Part shown: piece by piece, positions 11,140 to 20,177 of the stretch | Layout: each line of letters starts with the position of its first letter | Numbering within the stretch: the first letter of the stretch is position 1 | DNA from: a virus | IMG/VR virus record: IMGVR_UViG_3300040808_000727 | Location: 1 to 20,177 of that record | Reading direction: 5' to 3' (one strand) | Length of the DNA stretch: 20,177 nucleotides | Notes under the pieces: model-generated | Databases searched by the model: none | What the model was told of the DNA's origin: nothing | What the model saw: the letters and a program-made list of their open reading frames with translations, nothing else | Program-made: the position numbers and the translations under genes

Positions 11140-11596
11140 CGATGCTTCCCAATTTACGTTCGCACCATCTTAGCATTGGATCGCCTCCCCAAGCTGCGTA
11201 CATTACCGAACCGCATACCTCTTTACCATCTTCGTCGGTAAGGCTTCCCGTATCGTAAACCGATGCTCTGCTCAAGAAGGAATAGGTCCTCTTAATGGTT
11301 CGGACTGATAATGGCTCACGGTTTGCCAACTGCCGTGCTCGTGCCCATCCAACTGGAGTACCGCAGTTGCTTCCGTTCTCCTCCCGATGCCTGATGGCCT
11401 TCTTCGCTTCGTCTGATGCGCTTTTAGGGTAGTCTGCGTAGGGTTCTTCCTTTTCCGTGATTCCTTTCCATTGAGCGTAACAAACCGCTAAGCGTTGGCT
11501 TCCGATTGGATATTCCTCCTCCATCAATGGTTCGGAGTAGCATCTGCTGATGAACTCGCGCTCGGTTTCCTCTGGTCCGGGTTTAGGAATTGGCAT
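11132..11596 (-). CDS. Conserved phage protein of unknown function (GWARARQLA / AWGGD type)
   Basis: The 154-residue protein has two recognisable segments. The first is MPIPKPGPEETEREFISRCY with RLAVCYAQW, a pattern I know from short phage proteins and from the N-termini of some head-protease ORFs. The second is SASDEAKKAIRHREENG, CGTPVGWARARQLANREPLS, TYSFLSRASVYD and CGSVMYAAWGGDPMLRWCER, also widespread in phages. Conserved Cys residues (Cys19, Cys39, Cys78, Cys127) could bind metal or form structure. No enzymatic assignment is possible. Here it is a separate gene away from the protease, between a membrane protein gene (14-base overlap) and a MazG-like gene (8-base overlap). Confidence 0.65.
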   Translation of the reverse strand: MPIPKPGPEETEREFISRCYSEPLMEEEYPIGSQRLAVCYAQWKGITEKEEPYADYPKSASDEAKKAIRHREENGSNCGTPVGWARARQLANREPLSVRTIKRTYSFLSRASVYDTGSLTDEDGKEVCGSVMYAAWGGDPMLRWCERKLGSIDE

Positions 11597-11819
11597 CTCC
11601 GTTGTTTTTTAGGTTGTAGTATAAACCCAACCCTGCGATTACTGCTACCACGATTGCGCAGATTTGCGCTAAAGTAAGTAAAGTGGCCGTTAAAAACCCA
11701 ACTCCGTTATCGGTTACCACCCATATCAATAGGAATAAACCCACCCCAAACATGCTAAGGAATGCAAGGAATATGCGTACCAACTTCTCGGTGTGATCGT
11801 CTTGTTCTTCGTATTTCAT
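11583..11819 (-). CDS. Two-helix membrane protein, possible holin
   Basis: The 78-residue protein has a charged N-terminus (MKYEEQDDHTEKLVR), then two membrane helices at about residues 14-36 (IFLAFLSMFGVGLFLLIWVV) and 43-68 (LTATLLTLAQICAIVVAVIA), joined by the short turn TDNGVG, and a short polar tail. Size and topology suit a class II holin. However, the lysis-like genes of this phage lie 8 kb away, so superinfection exclusion or another membrane role is possible. It overlaps the next gene by 14 bases. An upstream TAAATTTA near 11,825-11,832 is one base from the -7 promoter consensus, which is weak evidence. Confidence 0.6.
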   Translation of the reverse strand: MKYEEQDDHTEKLVRIFLAFLSMFGVGLFLLIWVVTDNGVGFLTATLLTLAQICAIVVAVIAGLGLYYNLKNNGDANS

Positions 11820-19344: not shown

Positions 19345-19373
19345 AAAAAAAGGCCCGAGAATCAACCCGAGCC
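19345..19373 (-). terminator. Intrinsic terminator after the lysis-like genes
   Basis: In minus-strand RNA, GGCUCGGG pairs with CUCGGGCC (8 bp, two G-U pairs) around a 6-base loop and is followed by seven U. It begins about 52 bases after the stop of the membrane-anchored gene and separates that operon from the early promoter. The U-run side shares TGCAT plus seven A plus GG with the capsid terminator. Confidence 0.8.
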
Positions 19374-19424: not shown

Positions 19425-19859
19425 CTACATCAATATCGAAACTAAAAGTAGCACCCCCAAACCAACGCCTCCGTAAATTATCGCGCTCTTGGTTGTATTC
19501 AGCCTCCGCTCCAGGATTACTACCTCCTCCCGACAAAAGTCATACCGCTGGACCATATAACCCTTCTGCAGCTCTTGCAATTCGATTTGTTTATTGTAGT
19601 TCCCAGCTAAATTGCGGAAGTCGATCGCTTGTGCTTTGTAGTGAAGCAATAGCTTGTCTTGCGTCTGAATAATGCTATCTGCTATTAATAGGTCTTGATA
19701 CCAAGTCCACACCGCCCGGAATTGAGTACCCGTTAGCGACGTATCGGTCTGCCCATAAACGGACTTGGTCAATAATGATATCAGTATCAACCATGATATG
19801 TAAAGAATCCACACGTTGCCTTCGCGTTTTGAGGATTTCAAGTTCTGAATTAAGCGCAT
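19425..19859 (-). CDS. Exported coiled-coil protein with C-terminal membrane anchor, spanin-like
   Basis: The 144-residue protein has a signal-peptide-like N-terminus (WILYISWLILISLLTKSVYG, with VYG before Q as a plausible signal peptidase I site near residue 36), a helical, Q/L-rich middle (LLIADSIIQTQDKLLLHYKA, NYNKQIELQELQKGYM) and a C-terminal membrane helix (residues about 122-144, IIYGGVGLGVLLLVSILM). This gives a periplasmic coiled coil anchored in the inner membrane. The first 61 codons overlap the preceding gene in the +1 frame, as Rz1 overlaps Rz. No lipobox cysteine is present, so it is not a classical outer-membrane spanin. Confidence 0.65.
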   Translation of the reverse strand: MRLIQNLKSSKREGNVWILYISWLILISLLTKSVYGQTDTSLTGTQFRAVWTWYQDLLIADSIIQTQDKLLLHYKAQAIDFRNLAGNYNKQIELQELQKGYMVQRYDFCREEVVILERRLNTTKSAIIYGGVGLGVLLLVSILM

Positions 19860-20070
19860 TTATCGTATCTTGTTTCTCGCGCAAAGATAATAAAAGTATC
19901 TCGTTTGAGTGTTTTATTTTTGTCAAAACAACGTTAAGACTATCATATTTGCGTTCTAAGCGATTATCTTCTTTCGATGGTACTCTATATCCATAACGTA
20001 TCCAAATGCCGTAAGAAGCTGTAAAAACCACTAAAGCAGCGCAAATAATATCTTTGGCCGTTACTTTCAC
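19675..20070 (-). CDS. Inner-membrane coiled-coil protein, i-spanin-like
   Basis: The 131-residue protein starts with GTG 20070, overlapping the upstream stop (GTGA). It has one N-terminal membrane helix (about residues 8-27, IICAALVVFTASYGIWIRYG) and a long charged helical stretch (EDNRLERKYDSLNVVLTKIK, LREKQDTINALNSELEILKT) typical of a periplasmic coiled coil, then a short end with ADRYVANGYSIPGG. Size, topology and overlap with the next gene resemble Rz-type inner spanins. Its position after a possible endolysin would fit, but that gene cannot be identified here. Local GC content is low. Confidence 0.65.
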   Translation of the reverse strand: MKVTAKDIICAALVVFTASYGIWIRYGYRVPSKEDNRLERKYDSLNVVLTKIKHSNEILLLSLREKQDTINALNSELEILKTRRQRVDSLHIMVDTDIIIDQVRLWADRYVANGYSIPGGVDLVSRPINSR

Positions 20071-20177
20071 TCGAAGTAATGCGTTAATCGTGCGATCTGT
20101 CCTCTATCCCGTGAGTGAATAAACCCCTCTATCGCCTTGATTGCGCTATAACCGTTTCGGTGATGCCAACTATCCGT
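20067..20177 (-). CDS. C-terminal fragment of an unidentified gene, cut by the right window edge
   Basis: Thirty-six residues and a stop are visible (TDSWHHRNGYSAIKAIEGFI then HSRDRGQIARLTHYFE). It is the only minus-strand frame open from the right edge. It overlaps the next gene's GTG by three bases, so it belongs to the same operon. Its place just before spanin-like genes makes an endolysin possible, but the fragment has no catalytic motif I recognise. Confidence 0.6.
   Translation of the reverse strand, partial: TDSWHHRNGYSAIKAIEGFIHSRDRGQIARLTHYFE

Follow-up and report, generated by a model that had tools for sequence, protein, structure and literature searches.

The DNA analysed here, referred to as the window, is a 20,177-base IMG/VR virus record (IMGVR_UViG_3300040808_000727). 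Near its right end, two overlapping genes on the minus strand, which we call A and B, lie between the end of an exonuclease gene and a terminator-like hairpin. The features of this region are as follows.

20070..20177, minus strand: 3′ end of the exonuclease gene, last 36 codons, truncated by the window end; phrog_704 match, E 4.6e-5.
19675..20070, minus strand: gene A, GTG start, 131 amino acids, N-terminal membrane anchor and putative periplasmic helical domain, i-spanin-like.
19425..19859, minus strand: gene B, ATG start, 144 amino acids, Sec/SPase I type signal peptide, putative periplasmic domain and C-terminal hydrophobic tail.
19675..19859, minus strand: overlap of A and B, 185 nt, with B in the +1 frame.
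19752..19859, minus strand: predicted signal peptide of B, residues 1–36, without a lipobox and with Gln next (Bacteroidetes Q-rule); site by inspection.
19428..19481, minus strand: C-terminal hydrophobic tail of B, about residues 127–144, with 0 K/R after it and 3 K/R in the preceding 15 residues.
19352..19373, minus strand: terminator-like hairpin 3′ of B, 8 pairs and then a T run; 2 such hairpins in the region versus 0.8 expected.

The GTG start of A shares bases with the stop codon (GTGA) of the exonuclease gene that precedes it, and B starts 211 nt past the A start, which places it in the +1 frame. An earlier, sequence-only reading of the window had described two genes overlapping by 185 bases in different frames, and the present coordinates agree; every residue of B as far as Q37 is encoded inside the overlap, as expected from its statement that the signal peptide falls entirely there. 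Hydropathy, taken as the best 15-residue stretch, is 2.21 at the N terminus of A, 2.43 at the N terminus of B and 2.38 at the C terminus of B, which bears out both the N-terminal membrane helix proposed for the first protein and the membrane-type segment proposed to end the second. The only Cys in B is residue 109, and the protein accordingly lacks a lipobox cysteine, again as proposed. The coiled coil suggested for A stands less firmly: the helical periodicity of residues 33–93 was reached by 94/2000 shuffles and that of residues 33–110 by 185/2000, weakly above chance. The periodicity of B was not above chance (1062/2000 shuffles), and its AlphaFold model (mean pLDDT 53) was too poor for use. 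With a transmembrane (TM) helix predicted from hydropathy, A has the form of a first spanin subunit, namely an N-terminal TM and a periplasmic helical domain, and the 185-nt overlap places the pair among the embedded, overlapped or adjacent gene arrangements of spanins.

Overlapping frames can arise by chance, and B might in principle be an open frame that happens to run within and past A. Of 20,000 recodings of A with random synonymous codons, 5 left the +1 frame uninterrupted across the overlap, and 0 did so with a TM-like segment. Relatives of the window pair were found in seven IMG/VR contigs (B 97–98% identity, A 92–95%). These relatives are near-clones that represent few independent lineages (five have the same 29 differences from the window), and against them the overlap contains 11 substitutions, 9 of which are silent in B and 2 in A. 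Within the overlap, the protein under the stronger constraint is thus B. In the rest of the two genes, silent and replacing changes number 14 and 7 in A and 26 and 5 in B. In a second family of such pairs, the L086 family described below, two clades were of sufficient size for testing, and in both the synonymous differences in the A frame are lower inside the overlap (0.504 falling to 0.295, and 0.483 to 0.271). Synonymous differences in the B frame are mixed: 0.277 in the overlap versus 0.151 after it in a clade of 27, and 0.140 versus 0.447 in the other clade. The chance-frame reading of B is already contradicted by the recoding and substitution tests, and we give it almost no weight.

The neighbourhood of the pair is more complete in the near-identical contigs. 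In one of these (L013), tail-type genes are followed by a 98-aa TM/coiled-coil gene, an M15 endolysin gene, the complete exonuclease gene (L013:4892-6004), A, B and then genes matching the Erf-led block of the window. The endolysin is a 136-aa M15 peptidase (phrog_894, E 2.4e-24; PF08291, E 2.7e-16). The sequence-only reading had made its proposal depend on an endolysin in the same operon, and an M15 endolysin indeed stands upstream of exonuclease–A–B in these contigs. It had also asked what lies to the right of the window; the 36 exonuclease codons there match the C terminus of phrog_704 ('DNA repair exonuclease'), which in the relatives comes after the holin-like gene and the endolysin. The 98-aa protein (L013:4182-4478, P0006), an N-TM coiled-coil protein encoded immediately before the endolysin, is a holin candidate by position. 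Its weak PHROG matches include an Rz-like family (E 3.7e-6) and other coiled-coil families, and we count the Rz-like match against a spanin reading of A and B. The best-scoring named-phage matches of the terminase, among the best 15 of 1493 records, are to Croceibacter, Chryseobacterium and Cellulophaga phages and one phage from sewage; those of the exonuclease, among the best 50 of 1975, are to S-CBS2 and then to Flavobacterium and Elizabethkingia phages. From these matches, the host of the window phage is likely to belong to the Bacteroidota. Elsewhere in the window, among early-type genes, positions 11583-11819 encode a 78-aa protein with two hydrophobic segments, of which a relative was seen and which had no family match above the cut-off.

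Searches of family libraries with A and B of the window gave no meaningful match and no spanin family. Among 50,697 phage records, tblastn found no relative of B, and two E=1 matches of A to one virion RNA polymerase were rejected. The same gene layout was, however, found in a viral family collected through the second protein of locus L086, relatives of which occur at 69 viral loci. This set comprised 72 rows, in which three contigs appear twice (L112, L113 and L115 are second fetches); two rows with an incomplete B (L147 and L182) were dropped, leaving 70 full-length. The second fetches are included in the 70-row counts and excluded from the context counts over 57 and 34 loci. A +1-frame A is present in 68 of the 70 full-length rows (65 of 67 contigs), the overlap being 80 nt in 60 rows and 83 nt in 8. 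Of the two exceptions, L123 has the start of B 84 bases from the end of its contig, and no A was recognised in L134. Where at least 3.3 kb is available past B (34 loci), a convergent endolysin gene was found in 31, a Phage_holin_4-like gene in 32 and the exonuclease gene in 24. Location with holin and endolysin genes, as is typical of spanins, thus applies to the window family, the L086 family (31/34) and phage P2559S, considered below.

The upstream side of the L086-family pairs has a different character. Where at least 1.3 kb precedes B (57 loci), a transglycosylase-like gene is found in 29; the encoded protein (L086:3093-3473 and relatives) has a signal-peptide-like N terminus (PF01464, E 1.6e-4). 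These pairs end an operon after replication genes, with the endolysin on the opposite strand and convergent, an arrangement that we count against a spanin reading. Because replication-type genes precede many of the pairs, they may not belong to a late operon. An AlphaFold model of an L086-family B gives a beta hairpin and one helix for residues 38–127 (mean pLDDT 84). Profiles of these B proteins returned 112 and 24 pattern matches in genome_contigs with no confirmed relative; PDB gave no sequence at E<=0.1, BFVD no structure at E<=0.001, and three of the proteins had no match by tblastn of 50,697 phage records.

Two further pairs were recognised in named phages. In Croceibacter phage P2559S, gp29 and gp30 lie directly after the annotated endolysin on the same strand. 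The annotated start of gp30 is late (L229:27508-28065); starting at ATG 27508 gives a +1 overlap of 167 nt and at ATG 27577 one of 98 nt, and from such an upstream ATG the protein has a signal peptide lying in the overlap, and no Cys. It has no hydrophobic tail and was not flagged with a C-terminal TM, which counts against a spanin reading; an apparently strand-rich C terminus was not significant (418/2000 shuffles). In phage S-CBS2, gp001 and gp002 lie beside a 54%-identical exonuclease and overlap by 101 nt in the +1 frame if gp002 starts at ATG 693. Its annotated start looks late (L099:693-1193), and the upstream ATG restores a signal peptide within the overlap. This pair was missed by the automated pair scan and recognised by reading, and the tail of its second protein is weakly hydrophobic (1.40), again a point against a spanin reading. 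For the P2559S and S-CBS2 pairs, about 0.6–1.3% of recodings yield by chance an open frame that contains a hydrophobic stretch, so that each is singly weaker than the window pair. Two observations stand beside these pairs. S-CBS2 is recorded as a Synechococcus phage, and a TATATTTG motif, which we take to be the Bacteroidota -7 element, lies about 40 bases before gp001 (425, L099), in addition to the Q-rule type signal in gp002. In phage P2559Y, gp23 (L228:22998-23621), encoded after the amidase, is possibly a single-chain variant: it begins with a TM, and its C-terminal part seems rich in strands, though not significantly so (123/2000 shuffles).

The window pair had no detectable similarity to the other pairs tested by BLAST and hhalign, the P2559S pair being compared by tblastn and family scans alone, and homology between the L086 and S-CBS2 pairs was likewise unsupported. 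The recurrence may therefore be one of layout only. A role in modifying the envelope, for example in superinfection exclusion, and unrelated to lysis, would suit the position of the L086-family pairs after replication genes and near a transglycosylase-like gene, and also a weak PADLOC match of the first S-CBS2 protein to ZorB (E 0.0013). PADLOC gave no match for the window, L086 or P2559S pair, and the pairs of the window family and P2559S are downstream of the endolysin on its strand, so that we consider such a role quite unlikely.

The second proteins of all four groups have putative export signals of one kind. By inspection, a plausible signal peptidase I site (its position marked here by a hyphen) is followed by Gln in the window (SVYG-Q), S-CBS2 (VSMA-Q), P2559S (LALS-Q) and the L086 family (YSQ, in 57 of 57 unique proteins). 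These sequences fit the Bacteroidetes Q-rule, which places Gln directly after the signal peptidase I site (PMC5837995); for Porphyromonas phages, signal peptides of this Q-rule type have already been noted in genes whose function is unknown (PMC10367356). The signal ends in SQ in all 57 unique L086-family B proteins; a canonical lipobox occurs in 0/57, and a relaxed match precedes the conserved SQ in 2. The apparent lipobox of L086 itself was set aside, as the family does not conserve the Cys. A canonical lipobox is absent from the second protein in all four groups, and neither window B, the L086-family proteins nor P2559S gp30 is a lipoprotein of the kind that forms the second spanin subunit. 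Nor does B combine a lipobox and a C-terminal TM in one protein, as a unimolecular spanin (u-spanin) does: it has the C-terminal segment and no lipobox. As the lipobox is missing, we do not file A and B as a spanin.

The surroundings of the tail bear on the membrane that it may enter. In the 57 unique L086-family B proteins, the tail reaches the C terminus or stops within three residues of it, with 0 or 1 K/R after it and 3–8 in the preceding 15 residues. Under the positive-inside rule, a tail with basic residues before it and none after it is a poor inner-membrane stop-transfer anchor. The basic residues that precede the B tail, with none following, therefore favour the outer membrane as its location. 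If the tail were anchored in the inner membrane instead, both proteins would reside there, and A, with its one N-terminal TM and putative periplasmic domain, could form with B a holin/antiholin or lysis-timing pair analogous to T and RI of phage T4. This is unlikely in our view: a Phage_holin_4-like gene is already present in 32 of the 34 L086-family loci that are long enough, another TM/coiled-coil gene immediately precedes the endolysin in the window family, and u-spanins occupy the same slot in some relatives.

These u-spanin candidates came from a scan of the best 80 exonuclease loci among more than 599. In a strict scan, 14 of the 80 encoded a lipobox + C-terminal-TM protein within about 0.7 kb of the exonuclease; a 15th flag, at L086, was set aside as a member of an overlapping pair. 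A looser scan added three u-spanin-type loci (L021, L024 and L056), and among 29 further loci such a protein was found within about 1 kb in 6, three of which are near-identical. An apparent pair at L019 is, by eye, a u-spanin gene overlapping the end of a probable lysozyme gene. At most of the 80 loci, the available sequence showed no u-spanin and no pair. Candidates from cultured phages are Muminvirus gp03, beside the exonuclease, and Cellulophaga phi17:1 gp65, and part of a report on flavobacterial phages describes unimolecular spanins there too (PMC8776804). Both cultured candidates match phrog_5885, which is listed as of unknown function (phi17:1 gp65, L230:38280-38711, E 2.1e-53; Muminvirus gp03, L096:1383-1772, E 3.4e-12). 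The phrog_704-type exonuclease repeatedly adjoins a u-spanin candidate in a lysis region (17 loci within L019-L084 and 6 within L216-L227). The sequence-only reading had supposed an arrangement particular to Bacteroidetes phages; the layout does recur in other phages, but it is not general in the Bacteroidota, where several relatives have a u-spanin instead.

A canonical o-spanin or u-spanin might also be encoded elsewhere in these genomes, leaving A and B an accessory role. The scanned contigs may be incomplete. The clearest exception to the absence of candidates is contig G005 (L148), where a 103-aa lipobox + C-terminal-TM protein (contig 28638-28949, minus strand, in L190) is encoded about 3 kb from the pair; no endolysin was recognised near that pair. 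L148 was also the one real candidate among three flags in a u-spanin scan of 34 L086-family loci, the other two (L139 and L150) being minus-strand frames judged antisense by eye. Pattern scans found no coding-strand lipobox candidate in two window-family contigs (G001, 31.3 kb; G002, 29.8 kb) and no candidate at all in four of the six other pair contigs (G004, G008, G009 and G010); those flagged in the remaining two, G006 and G007, were judged non-coding by eye. The coding strand of P2559S, scanned for that combination only, encodes no lipobox + C-terminal-TM protein. On these scans, a separate spanin appears rather improbable.

We favour, with a probability of about 0.57, the reading that A and B form an outer-membrane-disrupting lysis module that would work as a two-component spanin does, though with no lipid anchor. 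In this proposal, which draws on topology signals, the overlap and selection on it, cassette position, the missing lipobox and recurrence of the layout, A would be held in the inner membrane by its N-terminal helix, with its helical domain projecting into the periplasm. B would be exported by Sec and cut by signal peptidase I, exposing Gln, and would then be anchored in a membrane, probably the outer membrane, through its C-terminal hydrophobic tail and bind A. Once the endolysin has removed the peptidoglycan, the A–B complex could join both membranes, and the outer membrane would fail. The cleavage of B, its binding to A, the membrane entered by its tail and the joining of membranes are parts that we infer. 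The variant spanin pair of the sequence-only reading survives as a good functional reading, given an endolysin in the operon and a layout that recurs near endolysins (in S-CBS2, beside the exonuclease), but the lack of a lipobox keeps the pair outside the spanin class.

Both described spanin types reach the outer membrane through a lipid, according to part of a 2018 survey, in which 91/677 genomes had no candidate meeting its localisation requirements (PMC6139136). A 2025 survey reports unimolecular spanins as the only type in Bacteroidetes phages and an absence of spanins from Cyanobacteria phages; o-spanin and u-spanin candidates without a lipid box were discarded (PMC12596118), so that lipid-free pairs could have been overlooked. 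As these filters are described there, pairs like A and B would fail those of both surveys, and we found no earlier description of such a lipid-free pair in the open-licence literature. It is a tentative proposal, which we hold at somewhat less than even odds, that Bacteroidota phages repeatedly arrived at lipid-free two-component spanins, with an inner-membrane first subunit and an overlapping Q-rule second subunit C-terminally anchored in the outer membrane, that replace the u-spanin and escape searches requiring a lipobox. If the proposed function of A and B is true, a lipid anchor is not essential for outer-membrane disruption, and the pairs have a searchable signature: an N-TM gene, a +1 overlap, a Q-rule signal, no lipobox and a C-terminal membrane segment. 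The cultured phage P2559S is a carrier open to direct test.

Known systems resemble the pair in different respects. Rz/Rz1-type overlapped pairs also have the +1 register. Like two-component spanins with overlapped genes, A has an N-terminal inner-membrane anchor, the B gene starts within A and the two occupy a lysis-cassette position; unlike them, B has an SPase I/Q-rule type signal, no lipobox Cys and a C-terminal membrane-type tail, and there is no sequence match. In three families of overlapped two-component spanins, as part of the 2018 survey describes, the first protein diverges in its overlap-encoded C terminus (PMC6139136), and in the window family, too, constraint across the overlap is weaker on A than on B. 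As in unimolecular spanins of the T1 gp11 type, B appears to be exported and to have a periplasmic domain and a C-terminal hydrophobic segment, and u-spanin candidates likewise adjoin the phrog_704 exonuclease or come immediately after the endolysin. By contrast, a lipobox is present in the 14 u-spanins compared (mostly members of a single family), together with 1–3 K/R in the 5–12 residues after the hydrophobic segment, whereas 0 K/R follow the tail in B of the window and S-CBS2 and 0 or 1 in the 57 unique L086-family proteins, and a partner gene is present. In phage T4, the single-TM holin T and the periplasmic antiholin RI are single-anchor proteins that act in lysis control. The predicted single anchors and putative periplasmic domains of A and B are similar to those of T and RI, but most pair loci have a separate holin-like gene.
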